Shown here: positions 2,900 to 12,427 of the stretch, piece by piece | Position numbering within the stretch: position 1 is the stretch's first letter | Layout: each line of letters starts with the position of its first letter | Virus record (IMG/VR): IMGVR_UViG_3300010885_010247 | Span: 1-22,196 of that record | Reading direction: 5' to 3' (one strand) | Source: a virus | DNA: 22,196 bases | Program-made: the position numbers and the translations under genes | The notes under the pieces: model-generated | What the model was told of the DNA's origin: nothing | The model's database searches: none | The model's input: the letters and a program-made list of their open reading frames with translations, nothing else

Positions 2900-3508
2900 T
2901 CAACCTCCCATCAAGAGAAATGGATGAATGATCAGATTGCGGACTTCGTTTGCTAGGTCGCTCTCAGTCACGGCCCCTGCCGCAATCGTCGGGTTGGGGT
3001 AAGTCCCCGTGAGGTCGCCGCCGGCAGTTCCAGTCGGCGTGCGCGAGTCAGATAGACGAGAGTCATTTCCAGCACAGTAGTTCGTTGAGGCCGTGCCAGC
3101 AGTCGGTAGTCCAGTGATCTGCGAAGCAGCGAGCGACAGCGCATCAGAGCCACCGCTTGCGTGACTAGAGGCGTGCGAGGCAGCGGCGTAGCTCCCGGCC
3201 GCCTGCTTGCCGTCGATGGCTGCCTGCAAGCCAGAGATGTCGCCGATGGCGGGGGCCGCGTGCCGGTGATCAGATCGTGAGGCCGTTGCCGCCGTACCGG
3301 CAGCCGCCGCGCCTGGGGCAAGCGGCGTGGCATCAGACAGAGTTGCACCGCCGCCACCTCCAGCGTCACCAGACGGCCCTTGCGGCCCGATGCCGCCCCC
3401 CACCGACACGCCGATAGCCGACGAGCCGACGCTCGCGGAGATCCCGCCAGCCCCGCTGACCGTCGCCGATATGGGCTGCGAGACGACGTTTGCGGCGATA
3501 TCGCTCAT
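2900..3508 (-). CDS. Short collagen-like tail fibre protein (202 aa)
   Basis: This is the second, shorter fibre. Residues 1-40 are beta-rich (MSDIAANVVSQPISATVSG onward), followed by a short collagen-like GPQGPSGDAGGGGG (41-54). Residues 58-90 carry SDATP and ASRSDHRH, also present twice in the large fibre. A GLQAAIDGKQAAG linker (93-105), a SHASSHASGG stretch, and the fibre motif DLTGTYPNPTIA (165-176) follow. These motifs are widespread in trimeric phage fibres. The start at 3508 is chosen because GAGG precedes it by seven bases and its ATG overlaps the upstream stop (ATGA); an upstream extension is Arg-rich and unlike the protein. It follows a BppU-like adaptor, the same order as in the larger cassette. 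Confidence 0.82.
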   Translation of the reverse strand: MSDIAANVVSQPISATVSGAGGISASVGSSAIGVSVGGGIGPQGPSGDAGGGGGATLSDATPLAPGAAAAGTAATASRSDHRHAAPAIGDISGLQAAIDGKQAAGSYAAASHASSHASGGSDALSLAASQITGLPTAGTASTNYCAGNDSRLSDSRTPTGTAGGDLTGTYPNPTIAAGAVTESDLANEVRNLIIHPFLLMGG

Positions 3509-3825
3509 GCGACGACCTCGACGGTGCCCGTGAGCGCCGTCCTCTGGACGCTGCCCGGGGCCACCCAATCAAGCTGCCATCCGTAGGTGCCCGAGGCGAG
3601 AGCGGCCGTCTGCGTGTCGGTGAGGCTCACAGAGACTTGCCCTGCGGCGGCGTCGGCGACCGAGGCCGTGAACGCCTGCACCACGGTGTTCGAGACGAGG
3701 CTCGTCAAGCTTGCCGTGACAGTGTATGAGGTCAGGGCGAAGTCGAAGTCGATAAGTACGCTGAAGTCCCCAGCCCGCTTGAACGCAAGATTCATCGTGC
3801 CGGGGAGGACGCTGTATGTGCTCAT
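3505..3825 (-). CDS. BppU-like baseplate or fibre adaptor (second copy, 106 aa)
   Basis: The 106-aa protein begins MSTYSVLPGTMNLAF, then GDFSVLIDFDFALTSYTV and ends ASGTYGWQLDWVAPG with GTVEVVA. This layout (a GD near residue 20, a strand with LTSYTVTA, and a final G-Y-W-L-W strand before a TGTV strand) resembles the N-terminal Ig-like domain of phage upper baseplate proteins (BppU family), which anchors fibres to the tail tip. It aligns by eye with the product at 6722-7087, which precedes the other fibre. The start at 3825 is supported by the ATGA overlap with the gene before it and by the paralogue's matching N-terminus. The family assignment is from pattern and not from a search. Confidence 0.7.
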   Translation of the reverse strand: MSTYSVLPGTMNLAFKRAGDFSVLIDFDFALTSYTVTASLTSLVSNTVVQAFTASVADAAAGQVSVSLTDTQTAALASGTYGWQLDWVAPGSVQRTALTGTVEVVA

Positions 3826-4295
3826 GCTTGCCACCAGATAGATAGTGTGCCACCCCACGTCAAATTGTCTGAACTTCCGCCGAGCTTTATTACGTTGCCA
3901 GCGGCGACGGTGATGGTCGAGTTGACGTTCCCGTTCAAAAAACCTGCTCCACTAGAATTGTCTGCGTAAGTATCAGCCGCTACACCGTTTTTATAGATTA
4001 CGAACGCATTGTCGCAGTCAACGCCCGACGCCGTTATCCTTACAGTCCCAGCAGAGACGACGGTCGCTTGCGCACCGTCTGCCGCGGAGTAACTTTGGAA
4101 ATTGGTTTTTGCATAGGGCGAAGCACTCGTCCCGCTGCCCGTAAAGCCAATCGCATTCCATGCTGTGTTGAACGAAGAGAAAGTCGCGCTTGAGACGACA
4201 GGCCATGCTTGCGACGAGCCGATGTACACTGCGCTCACGGCACTGCTGCCAAGGTAGTACGCTGACGGTGTTGCGGTGCCCAGATAAATTGCCAC
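3822..4295 (-). CDS. Fibre-associated beta-rich protein (157 aa)
   Basis: The N-terminus has three short repeats: IYLGTATPSA, YYLGSSAVSA and VYIGSSQAWP. This YLGS-type repeat ending in WP is a common tail-fibre element. Residues 35-157 form a beta-rich domain (FNTAWNAIGFTG, YAKTNFQSYSA, VRITASGVDCDNAF, TWGGTLSIWWQA) that looks like a jelly-roll or C1q-type fold; I cannot name it. The start is GTG at 4295, three bases after the stop of the large fibre gene, and the GGGGTGA that includes that stop serves as ribosome site. It probably sits on the large fibre as a tip or cap, which is inference from order only. Confidence 0.75.
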   Translation of the reverse strand: MAIYLGTATPSAYYLGSSAVSAVYIGSSQAWPVVSSATFSSFNTAWNAIGFTGSGTSASPYAKTNFQSYSAADGAQATVVSAGTVRITASGVDCDNAFVIYKNGVAADTYADNSSGAGFLNGNVNSTITVAAGNVIKLGGSSDNLTWGGTLSIWWQA

Positions 4296-4298
4296 TTT

Positions 4299-6725
4299 TC
4301 ACCCCGAAACGACATACAGCGTCGTGGACGACTTTGTGCCAAGCGCCGCATACGCCGCGGCGGTGAGGTAGACGACATTCGTCACCGCGTTCGCGCCGGT
4401 AATGCCGGACACGATGCTGGTCACGGCCGACAACTCAGTCGTCGTGATTGTCACCGTGCCCGTCCTGCCTTGAACGCTGACTACGTTCGCACTGATGGTG
4501 CCACTACTGACAGCCAAACCAGTGCCGACGATCACGCCGCCGATACTTGAGTTTGTGGCTGCGGGGATTCGGCCGGCAGGAACCGTGCCCGTACTCAAAT
4601 CACTTGCCGACCCCGATGTGGCGATTGTGGCGAGGCCGGAAACTGTGCTCGAGGCTTGGGTGCCAGTGTGATTCGCACGCTGGATCGCAAATGCCTGCAC
4701 GGCAGCGTCCGCAGCCGCTTGAGCCGTCGAAACGGGTTTACTGGCGTCGGCCACGTTATCGACGCTGCCCAACCCCACGTCGCCCTTAACAAGCGAGACG
4801 GCCCCGGTCTTCGACGCCACCGACGTGACCGGGCCGTAGAGGGCGGATTGGGTAGCGAAGTCGCTGATAGTCGATGCAAGCTGCGATCCAGTGTGGTTTG
4901 TTCTCTGAATGGAGTATGCCTGCACCGCGGCGTCCGCAGCCGCTTGAGCCGTCGAAACGGGCTTGCTGGCGTCGGCTACGTTATCGACCGCGCTCAAGCC
5001 CACGTCTGACTTGGTCAGTGACACAGCGCCTGTACGCGAAGCCACCGACGTGACTGGGCCGTAGAGGGCCGATTGAGCAGCGAAGTCGCTAATTGTCGCC
5101 GCAAGCTGCGATCCAGTGTGGTTTGTTCGTTGGATCGAATACGCCTGCACGGCAGCGTCTGCGGCGGCTTGGGCCGTCGAGACAGGCTTGCTTGCGTCTG
5201 CGACATTATCGACGTTGCCCAGCCCCACGTCGCCCTTGACGAGCGTAATATCCCCAGTCCTCGTCGCCACTGAGGTGACCGGGCCATAGAGAGCGGACTG
5301 GGTGGCGAAGTCGCTGATTGTCGCCGCAAGCTGCGATCCAGTGTGGTTTGTTCTCTGAATAGAGTATGCCTGCACGGCAGCGTCAGCGGCCGCCTGGGCG
5401 GTCGAGACGGGCTTACTTGCGTCGGCGACGTTATCGACGCTGCCCAACCCCACGTCGCCCTTAACCAGCGTGATAGCGCCCGTCCTCGTCGCCACTGAGG
5501 TGACCGGGCCGTATAGGGCGGACTGGGTGGCGAAGTCGCTGATGGTGCTTGCGGTTTGGGTATGGGTGGCCGGCGAGAAACTCGTCGGCACATTGCTCAG
5601 TGCCGTATAGGAAATCGTAGGCAGCAAATGAACGTGATCGTCTCGAGAGGCAAGGCTTGACGTTCCAGGCGCAGCCGTTCCGAGTGGCTGCGGGGTAGCG
5701 CTTGATAGCGATGCCCCAGAAGTGCCGCCGCCGGCCGTGATCGTCACAGCGCCCGTAAGCCCGTTGACCGACAGCACGTTCCCGATCTTTGCCACCTCAA
5801 CCGCGAAGTCACTTATGGTGCTTGCGGTCTGCGTGTGGGTGGCCGGCGAGAAAGACGTTGGCACGTTACTCAAGGCCGTATACGAAATCGTCGGCAGCGA
5901 ATGAACGTGGTCACTTCTGCTGGCGAGGCTTGAGGTGCCAGCCGCCGCCGTGCCCAGTGCCGCTGGCGTGGCGTCGGACATATTCGTACTGCCAGAGGCA
6001 CCGGCAGGCCCTGGCTGAAGTACGAAAGACAGAGTCTGAGAGGGTGCGGTTCCGCTAATGCTCACCGCTGCCGTTGTTCCGGTGGTGACGCTCCCGATGG
6101 ATAGCAAGTTCGCCGGCCCCGCTGGGAGTACGAACGAGAGCGACTGAGACGGTGCTGTGCCGCTAATGCTGACAGCAGCCGTTGTTCCGGTGGTGACGCT
6201 GCCGATAGATATAGAATTGGCTGGCCCAGAATTTCCAGTCGGCCCTGGCTGAAGCACGAAAGACAGAGTCTGAGAGGGTGCGGTTCCGCTTATGCTCACG
6301 GCCGCAGTTGTCCCCGTCGTCACGCTTGCCACCGACAGAGAATTTGCGGGGCCGGCTGAACCGGCAGCACCCGGCTGAAGGACAAAAGCGAGAGTCTGCG
6401 ATGGTGCCGAGCCGCTGATAGTGACGGCCGCCGTGGCTCCAGTCGTCACGCTGCCAATGGACAGCGAGTTTGCGGGGCCGGTTGCCCCCGTCAGCCCGCG
6501 CGGCAATCCAAAATCCAGCTTGGCTGCATAGGACGTGCCAGAATTCACAACGGATGCGGACGCCGTAGTTCCGAGCGTCGTGACCGTGCCGACTTGTACG
6601 GTCGCCGCGGCTCCGTTGCCGCCGCCGATGGTCTGGTCGCCGACATTGACGCTGACCGAGTCGCCGTTACCCACGGTGCTTGAAATACTCGTCGATCCGA
6701 CGACGACGACGGATATTTCGCTCAT
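4299..6725 (-). CDS. Large repetitive tail fibre protein (808 aa)
   Basis: This is the main fibre. Residues 1-80 form an N-terminal beta region (MSEISVVVVGSTSISSTVG) similar to that of the short fibre. Residues 85-246 hold four collagen-interrupted units (SIGSVTTGTTAAVSISG, then APSQTLSFVLQPGP). Residues 248-400 hold two copies of SDATP/SSATP with ASRSDHVH and TISYTALSNVP. Residues 408-700 hold four 75-aa units (VTSVATRTG, GDVGLGSVDNVADASKPVST, NHTGSQLA, ISDFATQSALYGP), and a unique C-terminus follows. The GDVGLGNVDN module is well known from phage fibres. No C-terminal chaperone or enzymatic domain is seen. The gene overlaps its adaptor (ATGA). Repeats suggest a trimeric shaft whose length can vary. 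Confidence 0.88.
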   Translation of the reverse strand: MSEISVVVVGSTSISSTVGNGDSVSVNVGDQTIGGGNGAAATVQVGTVTTLGTTASASVVNSGTSYAAKLDFGLPRGLTGATGPANSLSIGSVTTGATAAVTISGSAPSQTLAFVLQPGAAGSAGPANSLSVASVTTGTTAAVSISGTAPSQTLSFVLQPGPTGNSGPANSISIGSVTTGTTAAVSISGTAPSQSLSFVLPAGPANLLSIGSVTTGTTAAVSISGTAPSQTLSFVLQPGPAGASGSTNMSDATPAALGTAAAGTSSLASRSDHVHSLPTISYTALSNVPTSFSPATHTQTASTISDFAVEVAKIGNVLSVNGLTGAVTITAGGGTSGASLSSATPQPLGTAAPGTSSLASRDDHVHLLPTISYTALSNVPTSFSPATHTQTASTISDFATQSALYGPVTSVATRTGAITLVKGDVGLGSVDNVADASKPVSTAQAAADAAVQAYSIQRTNHTGSQLAATISDFATQSALYGPVTSVATRTGDITLVKGDVGLGNVDNVADASKPVSTAQAAADAAVQAYSIQRTNHTGSQLAATISDFAAQSALYGPVTSVASRTGAVSLTKSDVGLSAVDNVADASKPVSTAQAAADAAVQAYSIQRTNHTGSQLASTISDFATQSALYGPVTSVASKTGAVSLVKGDVGLGSVDNVADASKPVSTAQAAADAAVQAFAIQRANHTGTQASSTVSGLATIATSGSASDLSTGTVPAGRIPAATNSSIGGVIVGTGLAVSSGTISANVVSVQGRTGTVTITTTELSAVTSIVSGITGANAVTNVVYLTAAAYAALGTKSSTTLYVVSG
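4605..5504 (-). repeat. Four tandem 225-bp repeats in the fibre gene
   Basis: The 75-codon module of the large fibre occurs four times at residues 408, 483, 558 and 633. At the DNA level the landmark gtgtggtttg falls at 4891, 5116 and 5341, with the related gtgtgattcg at 4666. The period is therefore exactly 225 bp with no indels. The last unit in reading order (toward 4605) is the most diverged and its end grades into unique sequence. Confidence 0.92.
5529..5957 (-). repeat. Duplicated 52-codon fibre module
   Basis: Residues 257-308 and 348-399 of the large fibre are nearly identical, from LGTAA through ASRSDHVH and TISYTALSNVPTSF to ASTISDFA, and start 91 codons apart. In DNA the copies lie at about 5802-5957 and 5529-5684. 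A related but shorter version occurs in the short fibre at residues 58-90. Confidence 0.85.
5988..6473 (-). repeat. Four tandem 126-bp-class repeats in the fibre gene
   Basis: Units start at residues 85, 127, 169 and 205 of the large fibre, each reading PANSLSIGSVTTG then SGTAPSQTLSFVLQPGP. The spacings are 42, 42 and 36 residues. The third unit lacks the six-residue collagen-like end, an in-frame loss of 18 bp. Confidence 0.88.
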
Positions 6726-7087
6726 GGGGCTACCGCCGTGACGCTTCCGCTAATGATCGTGCGGGTGATGGCCGTTGGCGAAATCCACCGCAGATACCAG
6801 CGGTAGGTCGTCCCCGGCGAAAGGAGATTCGTCTGCGTCTCGTTTAGGCCGATCACCAGCGCCCCAGTTGAGGCGTTGGAGATGCCGATGGTCGGCTGCG
6901 TTACCGTGGTGCCGATGCCCGAGAGCGAGCCAGCACCGCCGCCAGCCGTGGTCGTGTCGCTCTGGTAAACGTAGCTCTCCCAGGAGTAGCTAGTAACGTC
7001 CCGGCCGAGCGAAATTGCGACGTTCACTTCGTCGCCGTGTACCGCGAGAATGTCCAATACACCTGGAAGCTGGCTGAAGGTTGCGAT
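6722..7087 (-). CDS. BppU-like baseplate or fibre adaptor (first copy), apparent ATC start
   Basis: The 121-aa product is a paralogue of the adaptor at 3505-3825. From ATC at 7087 it reads (I)ATFSQLPGVLDILAVHGDEV, which aligns with MSTYSVLPGTMNLAF of the paralogue, and later DVTSYSWES, LSPGTTYRWYLRW and IISGSVTAVAP match its LTSYTV, ASGTYGWQLDW and GTVEVVA. The first conventional start codon is TTG at 7057, which would discard the conserved FSQLPG block and has only a poor ribosome site. The ATC has GAGGTGAG seven bases upstream, just after the previous stop. I therefore infer an ATC start (permitted in bacterial code 11 but rare) or a single-base error. The role, linking a fibre to the tail tip, is inferred from the family pattern. 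Confidence 0.68.
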   Translation of the reverse strand: MATFSQLPGVLDILAVHGDEVNVAISLGRDVTSYSWESYVYQSDTTTAGGGAGSLSGIGTTVTQPTIGISNASTGALVIGLNETQTNLLSPGTTYRWYLRWISPTAITRTIISGSVTAVAP

Positions 7088-7090
7088 TGT

Positions 7091-7098
7091 CTCACCTC
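7091..7098 (-). promoter_or_regulatory. Ribosome binding site supporting the ATC start
   Basis: On the minus strand GAGGTGAG begins two bases after the TGA of the membrane-protein gene, and its GAGG ends seven bases before the ATC at 7087. That is optimal spacing for initiation at ATC, whereas it lies more than 30 bases from the TTG at 7057. Confidence 0.6.
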
Positions 7099-7099
7099 G

Positions 7100-7414
7100 T
7101 CAGTTGCTGGCAGAGTCTGCCGAACCAGTCCGCTTGACGACGGCGGCCTTGATTTCGTGCTGATCCTTGGCAATCGCGTCAAGCGTCTCCGCTTGCTTGA
7201 ACTGGGTTTTACCAATCTCATCCAGAGTCGCCCGCGTCGAATCCAAGAACTCTGTATGGCTCTTCACAATCGGCACCAGAACCGTGCCGTGAAGCGTCAC
7301 AGCGGCGTCACGCAGGAACCAGACCATGACGGCCAGAAGCAGGACGGGGACGCCGAATCGTTCGGCCACCCGAAACCCGGCCTCAATAAGGGACAAGGGA
7401 CGGGGGTCGCTCAT
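7100..7414 (-). CDS. Single-span membrane protein, holin candidate (104 aa)
   Basis: After a short soluble N-terminus (MSDPRPLSLIEAG) one hydrophobic helix is clear at about residues 20-35 (FGVPVLLLAVMVWFL), followed by a predicted helical, charged C-terminal half (EFLDSTRATLDEIGKTQFKQAETLDAIAKDQ cut by no prolines) likely to form a coiled coil. Size, one transmembrane segment and location between the enzyme genes and the fibre cassette are compatible with a holin, but no endolysin gene is in the window, so it could be another virion or membrane protein. The start at 7414 has CGGAG seven bases upstream; the longer TTG start at 7438 has no comparable site. Confidence 0.7.
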   Translation of the reverse strand: MSDPRPLSLIEAGFRVAERFGVPVLLLAVMVWFLRDAAVTLHGTVLVPIVKSHTEFLDSTRATLDEIGKTQFKQAETLDAIAKDQHEIKAAVVKRTGSADSASN

Positions 7415-11326: not shown

Positions 11327-12427
11327 TTATGTATACCAGCGAAGGCCGAAGGCTGAGAAGTTATTGCCGAAAGGCATTTCGGGTTGAAGGCAGATGCGGT
11401 TAATGAGCACCTTCTCCGTTAAGCCATACACCGTCGTGTCTCGAGGTGTGCCATTGTCGTTCAGAGGAATTGGTTGAGCGCACGGTATTTGGGTATAGCC
11501 GCCCACGGCACTGCCAGTTGCCGCCACCGTCACCATAGCCCTCACTTTTCCAGTTGCTCCCGTCGCCAGGGCCGCCGGGGCGTTGCCATTCATCTTCACG
11601 CGACCGTTGTCGTCATGCTCGAGTACAAGTGCTTTTTGGTCTACGCCGCTTGTCCCTAGTCCACTATTGATGATATTGAATCCAGTTAGTGGAACGGCGA
11701 TGTCCCAGCCAATGGCTTGAAAACCGTCTCGAGTAAAAGCCCAGTGCGAGCGGACGGCGAAGCTAAATGTCACCTTAAAACCACGAAACGTCACGCCGCC
11801 GAACTGCTCAACGACCGGCGATGATGAGATGCTCTGGAGCATACAGCAGTGGGTGCCGATGGAGAGGCCGCTGAATGTGAATGAAGACTGGTTGACATAT
11901 CCGCAGTACCCCAGGTAGTTGCTCATATCAGTTGACGAATACTGATCAATGTTGATTGTGACGACGGGTTCGAGTCGAGTAATCCCATCGACCATATCGC
12001 CTGCTGGATTTACCGCAGGCACCATCGCCCCAGAAGACCCGCCCGTGACGACTTTGCCTCCCCACGCCGCGATCTCCGTCAGCGACGTTGTCATCGAATA
12101 CATCGCCGGTCGAACCGTCGGTTCCTGCGACTTCGGGTCTGCTGCACCTGGCGCTGCGCTGGGGGTTGAGCGGTATTCAGCCGTGACGATGCACAGCATC
12201 CGGTCTTCGCCGTCGTGGACGGCCTCAACGCTCACGCACGGGATCGGATTGGCATTGCTGTACAGGTCGCCGATGTTCACGCCGACCGCAGCGAAGATAT
12301 CCCAGTTCTCGCTCGGCGTGTTAAGGAGAACCTTCCACTTGCGGGTGGCTTTGTAAGCCTCGCCGCCGCCATCGGAGCTAAGACCGAAGGCATTGCCCTG
12401 CGCGAGTTCTGATACAAGCTTTGGCAT
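11327..12427 (-). CDS. Putative distal tail protein (366 aa)
   Basis: This gene starts three bases after the tape measure stop, the position of distal tail proteins in lambda-like and HK97-like tails. The sequence has RKWKVLLNTPSENWDIF, VNIGDLYSNANPIPCVSVEA and DRMLCIVTAEYRSTP in the first 90 residues, and a central VTFRGFKVTFSFAVRSHWAFT block; the whole looks beta-rich. I do not recognise a named family and see no peptidase or glycan hydrolase motif. There is no convincing ribosome site, so it is probably translated by coupling to the tape measure gene. Confidence 0.75.
   Translation of the reverse strand: MPKLVSELAQGNAFGLSSDGGGEAYKATRKWKVLLNTPSENWDIFAAVGVNIGDLYSNANPIPCVSVEAVHDGEDRMLCIVTAEYRSTPSAAPGAADPKSQEPTVRPAMYSMTTSLTEIAAWGGKVVTGGSSGAMVPAVNPAGDMVDGITRLEPVVTINIDQYSSTDMSNYLGYCGYVNQSSFTFSGLSIGTHCCMLQSISSSPVVEQFGGVTFRGFKVTFSFAVRSHWAFTRDGFQAIGWDIAVPLTGFNIINSGLGTSGVDQKALVLEHDDNGRVKMNGNAPAALATGATGKVRAMVTVAATGSAVGGYTQIPCAQPIPLNDNGTPRDTTVYGLTEKVLINRICLQPEMPFGNNFSAFGLRWYT

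Follow-up and report, generated by a model that had tools for sequence, protein, structure and literature searches.

A very probably natural ATC start at a fibre adaptor gene of an uncultured phage group, in a start column without ATG

To our knowledge, conserved ATC or ATT start codons have been described for very few genes, mainly infC. The infC gene (IF3) starts with ATT in E. coli and with ATC in Streptomyces, and Streptomyces sigR starts with GTC (PMC5472188). For E. coli infC mutants the same source cites a 3- to 15-fold rise in output. For phage T5, p132 is described as an Ig-like dodecameric collar on which the side fibres are anchored and which resembles the BppU N-terminal domain (PMC10038345); in DT57C, LtfC, of 140 residues, is the equivalent of p132 (PMC10713586). 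Here we describe a putative collar-like fibre adaptor gene in one uncultured phage group, the frame of which opens with ATC.

The window (the whole stretch of DNA that was analysed, 22,196 bases of a virus record) carries two cassettes of adaptor and fibre genes, which differ in that the first has a weak start and the second a normal one (Table 1). On the minus strand, the gene with the weak start reads ...AACTGACGAGGTGAGACA-ATC-GCAACCTTCAGCCAGCTTCCAGGTGTATTGGAC..., with the ATC exactly at 7087-7085, and its frame runs as I-ATFSQLPGVLDIL... through the TGA ending at 6722, which agrees with the frame drawn by the first-pass annotation. The 12-nt interval between the upstream TGA (7102-7100) and the ATC holds the codons CGA GGT GAG ACA (RGET) and no plausible start; judged from the sequence, the ATC is the sole plausible start of the frame 7087-6722. 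The first conventional start is indeed the TTG at 7057 that the annotation had named, found at codon 11, and the predicted N-terminal peptide would be ATFSQLPGVLDILAVHGDEVNVAISLGR from the ATC and MDILAVHGDEVNVAISLGR from the TTG. The Shine-Dalgarno sequence (SD) that had been placed seven bases upstream was likewise recovered (GAGG at 7098-7095, 7 nt before the ATC), as was the alignment of the N-terminus with the paralogue starting at 3825 (31% identity from the first residues, E=5e-14 for the pair). Among eight relatives, this paralogue starts with ATG in 7/8 and with GTG in 1/8, and its overlap with the fibre-like gene is ATGA except in one relative with GTGA.

Table 1. Coordinates of the features at the two adaptor-fibre cassettes of the window.
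Feature	Position	Strand	Basis or conservation
Fibre adaptor (collar-like) gene, ATC-initiated, 121 codons	6722..7087	-	Frame, length, clade homologues, fold match
ATC start codon	7085..7087	-	ATC/ATT/GTG/TTG, never ATG, in 21 clade members
GAGGTGA Shine-Dalgarno, GAGG core ending 7 nt before the ATC	7092..7098	-	Predicted anti-SD duplex -11.8 kcal/mol
TTG, first canonical in-frame start, codon 11, not the real start	7055..7057	-	TTA in relatives L046, L053
Small membrane-protein-like gene (ATG, MSDPRPLS...), stop TGA 7102-7100, frame shared with the adaptor	7100..7414	-	
ATGA overlap, adaptor stop TGA / fibre start ATG	6722..6725	-	21/21 clade members
Tail fibre gene, 808 aa, ATG, after the adaptor, repeat-rich, terminal Phage_tail_C	4299..6725	-	
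Paralogous adaptor, second cassette, ATG start	3505..3825	-	ATGA overlap with the next fibre-like gene
Second fibre-like minor tail protein, overlapping the paralogous adaptor	2900..3508	-	

Three genes on the minus strand have features of their own. The fibre gene (4299-6725) contains several near-identical internal repeats (TISDFATQSALYGPVTSVATRTG...) and is a likely recombination site. The gene at 3822-4295 has a GTG start, shared by the three alignable relatives (L007, L010, L011), and a GGGGTGA ribosome site ahead of it. A very glycine-rich predicted protein at 1709-2572 also starts with GTG, as it does in L011.

The label of fibre adaptor given by the first-pass annotation was supported by the predicted fold. 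The AlphaFold2 model (pLDDT 80) is an Ig-like beta-sandwich of the LtfC/p132 type, and its top-ranking matches among solved structures come from the tail tips of T5 (chains 7qg9 L and J) and DT57C (chains 8hqz T and Q), with E about 1e-5; judged by their length (137-140) and by the papers, these chains are taken to be p132 and LtfC. The fold matches in a viral library include a protein named BppU N-terminal domain-containing. The family search, directed at Pfam LtfC and the PHROG fibre-assembly families, returned only phrog_1084 for the adaptor, weakly at 0.0025, and for the paralogue phrog_1084 (1.3e-11), phrog_3304 (2.4e-4) and PF23926, the last below its cut-off. The protein likely works like a collar adaptor, and its membership of LtfC/p132 is likely rather than proved because the sequence evidence is weak. 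In the T5 region taken for the start-codon comparison, p132 was not seen.

A scan with the adaptor matched five viral contigs, with ATC in L002 (100% identical) and L004/L005 (78%), ATT in L003 (79% identical) and ATG in the distant L006 (40%). Scanning with the upstream membrane protein gave 34 contigs and a profile scan 69, and scans with the fibre N-terminus and the metallophosphoesterase gave no additional ATC or ATT member. The resulting clade, one uncultured phage group, has 21 distinct adaptors of 121 codons each, nearly all co-linear; in a 20-row protein alignment, gaps were confined to L034 or stood opposite it. The start column holds ATC in eight members (L045, L046, L047, L053, L059, L061, L064, L067; L063 is almost identical to L059), ATT in a single sequence (L049), TTG in six (L050, L055, L065, L066, L068, L077), GTG in six (L034, L052, L056, L062, L070, L073) and ATG in none. 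The two members that diverge most from the rest are L034 and L070, and on the tree L034 groups with ATG-starting relatives; leaving both out, the count of ATG is 0/19. More distant relatives outside the set start with ATG or GTG, and a few with TTG. Searched by tblastn, 50,697 named phage records gave no match to any of three proteins (the adaptor, the product of the upstream membrane gene and the protein encoded at 11330-12427), and hence no cultured relative; a collection of bacterial and archaeal genomes likewise yielded no relative. On a tree of 53 sequences, the distribution of ATC/ATT implies 5 changes; for ATC by itself, well-supported branches require no fewer than 3. Start-region recombination could explain some of these changes, and relatedness and recombination together lower the effective number of independent start-codon events.

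The ATC is one base from ATG and TTG is the first canonical start of the frame, as would be expected if the ATC were a sequencing or assembly error, which the annotation had offered as its alternative, or if translation really began at TTG 7057. The ATC/ATT starts, however, occupy one alignment column in 13 contigs, each from a different one of 13 IMG metagenome datasets, and L002/L007 represent a separate assembly, two of whose other tail genes are 99% and 95% identical to their counterparts in the window. With a non-ATG start retained there by homologues that were assembled independently, the ATC is neither chance nor error. At the TTG position L046 and L053 carry TTA, and no close homologue starts there. 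In the nine ATC/ATT members the first canonical start is not conserved, lying at codons 11, 16, 6, 10, 62, 52, 16, 24 and 16, and some members have none before codon 52 (L059) or 62 (L053) of 121. Over codons 2-11 of these members, pairwise differences number 60/54/147 at positions 1/2/3, and the codon differences are 118 synonymous and 64 non-synonymous; since they are mostly third-position and synonymous, codons 2-11 are translated in the adaptor frame. Both an error and a start at TTG are refuted by this comparison and very improbable, and the ATC start is, with high confidence, natural, as the annotation had proposed. The upstream TGA at 7102-7100 shares the adaptor frame four codons ahead of the ATC, and therefore readthrough, which would yield a membrane protein-adaptor fusion, needed testing. 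In the window the stop and the adaptor do lie in one frame, with a C after the TGA; against readthrough, L046/L010 have an in-frame TGA TAG double stop before the ATC, the upstream stop is TAA in L059 and L067, in L018/L023, L022 and L034 the upstream gene is in another frame, and the spacing varies among relatives. A single readable stop with the frame preserved across relatives was not found, and the comparison refutes readthrough. The pairing of membrane gene and adaptor is not universal: in L037, L038 and L039, unrelated genes follow the homologues of the upstream membrane gene.

The absence of ATG is particular to the adaptor. Twelve neighbouring genes in the same contigs start with ATG in 148/157 cases and with GTG in the other 9; ATG opens the fibre gene in 20/20, the metallophosphoesterase gene in 20/20 and the upstream membrane gene in 21/22. 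The start rule used for the neighbours prefers an ATG within a few codons, and the same rule applied to the adaptors still gave ATG in 0/21. The contrast between adaptors and neighbours has a Fisher p of about 1e-20, which is descriptive only as the sequences are related. We conclude that the avoidance of ATG is specific to the adaptor gene. What is selected may be this avoidance and not ATC itself, because the GTG and TTG members have only mildly weak starts. Avoidance of the CCATGG palindrome was considered as a cause of the missing ATG and rejected, as several members have flanking bases that would not complete the palindrome.

The mean predicted SD-anti-SD duplex was -10.6 kcal/mol for the clade adaptors, -7.0 for the neighbours and -5.8 for distant ATG-starting homologues. 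The anti-SD and the IF3 of the host are assumed to be standard. A strong SD in front of a poor codon is compatible with a tuned weak start and also with compensation; such an SD could partly offset the codon, so that output may not be low. RNA structure at the start did not appear conserved (z-scores about -1.5 to 0, no covariation), and a predicted GAGGU/ACCUU pairing was unsupported. The starts of ATC/ATT members were not less accessible than those of other members (p 0.15), and the tRNA and Rfam search of the window found none. Initiation at the out-of-frame GTG within GAGGTGA, followed by frameshifting, was set aside as having no supporting feature.

The most likely reading, which we hold with moderate confidence, combines a natural weak AUC start with a throttle on the coupled adaptor-fibre cassette. 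A 121-residue Ig-like adaptor of the T5 LtfC/p132 and BppU-N kind would be made by natural AUC initiation (AUU in one relative), the strong and well-spaced GAGGTGA positioning the initiator tRNA, presumably with fMet. The initiator tRNA would pair with only the first two bases of AUC, and IF3 would be expected to reject most such complexes, giving initiation that is weak, presumably IF3-sensitive and low in output. Through the overlap of the adaptor stop with the start of the fibre gene, the rate of adaptor initiation should limit the fibre as well, by a presumed coupling, and the poor start would act as a throttle on the cassette, which perhaps determines how much of each cassette is made relative to the other. 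The comparison shows where the start lies, that it is conserved, that ATG is absent and that the SD and the ATGA overlap are present; it supports the weak start well, and the purpose of the weak start is probably to hold back the production of fibre parts. The suggestion, made in the first-pass annotation, that ATC keeps the adaptor at low stoichiometry would fit the weak start and the ATGA overlap.

Two live rivals of the throttle, which are not mutually exclusive with it or with each other, concern what the weak codon does. If the drift among ATC, ATT, GTG and TTG were simply tolerated and a strong SD restored normal initiation, there would be no throttle and no function in the start. The stronger SDs of the clade compared with the ATG-starting distant homologues would agree with such compensation, as would the general tendency of weak-start genes toward stronger SDs (Belinky et al. 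2017, PMC5622118); yet in that study GUG and UUG starts changed most often to AUG (PMC5622118), and ATG is found in 0/21 despite frequent switching of the column, while neighbours with fairly strong SDs (fibre, dNMP kinase) retain ATG in all or most members. We consider compensation as the whole explanation rather unlikely. Alternatively, ribosomes that end the upstream membrane gene at the SD could restart at the ATC, in which case the quality of the codon would matter little and expression of the adaptor would depend on translation of the membrane gene. In all members a gap of 2-12 nt separates the upstream stop from the adaptor start, and a 12-nt spacing is seen in 9/9 ATC/ATT members vs 2/12 of the others (usually 8-9), but on the tree the association lacks significance (3 independent pairs, starred branches, p 0.25). 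Termination-reinitiation is a possibility to be held tentatively; it is compatible with the throttle and may operate alongside it.

That the lineage is under long-term selection against ATG at one structural gene, with AUC/AUU used repeatedly as an IF3-gated throttle, is a further and doubtful proposal. If it were true, the initiation-factor state of the host would set the amount of one of the two cassettes and hence the fibre make-up of the virion. The switching of the adaptor start among ATC, ATT, GTG and TTG, never ATG, provides a natural weak-start series for testing the purpose of the codon. Gene callers restricted to ATG, GTG and TTG would miss the adaptor gene or shorten it by up to half its length.

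Among described systems, LtfC (DT57C) and p132 (T5) of the collar and the BppU N-terminal domain resemble the adaptor in predicted Ig-like fold and in being small single domains. The likeness to LtfC/p132 lies in the predicted fold and in gene adjacency, the adaptor directly adjoining the fibre gene with an ATGA overlap; identity is only 13-15%, and the available text describes no ATC start for them. The AUU start of B. burgdorferi pncA was, like that of the adaptor, missed by annotation, and the conserved protein depends on the correct N-terminus; unlike the adaptor, pncA is a single bacterial enzyme gene, with a start verified by biochemistry and a crystal structure (PMC13398362). In sigR, the non-canonical start lowers one protein relative to its operon partner, and replacement by ATG, GTG or TTG unbalances the pair (PMC5472188); that gene encodes a regulatory sigma factor and its effect was shown experimentally, whereas the adaptor case comes from sequence comparison. 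As in infC, a canonical start of the adaptor cannot give the conserved protein (the first ones lie at codons 6-62), and the non-canonical codon is kept, as ATC/ATT in 9 distinct sequences and GTG/TTG in the remainder. The two genes share an evolutionarily conserved ATT/ATC start, of the kind that IF3 represses in the case of infC; they differ in that infC belongs to the host and is autoregulated through the protein it encodes, whereas the adaptor is a phage structural gene with a start that alternates with GTG and TTG. The adaptor is a further case beside the known conserved non-canonical starts, with infC (ATT/ATC) as its closest precedent.
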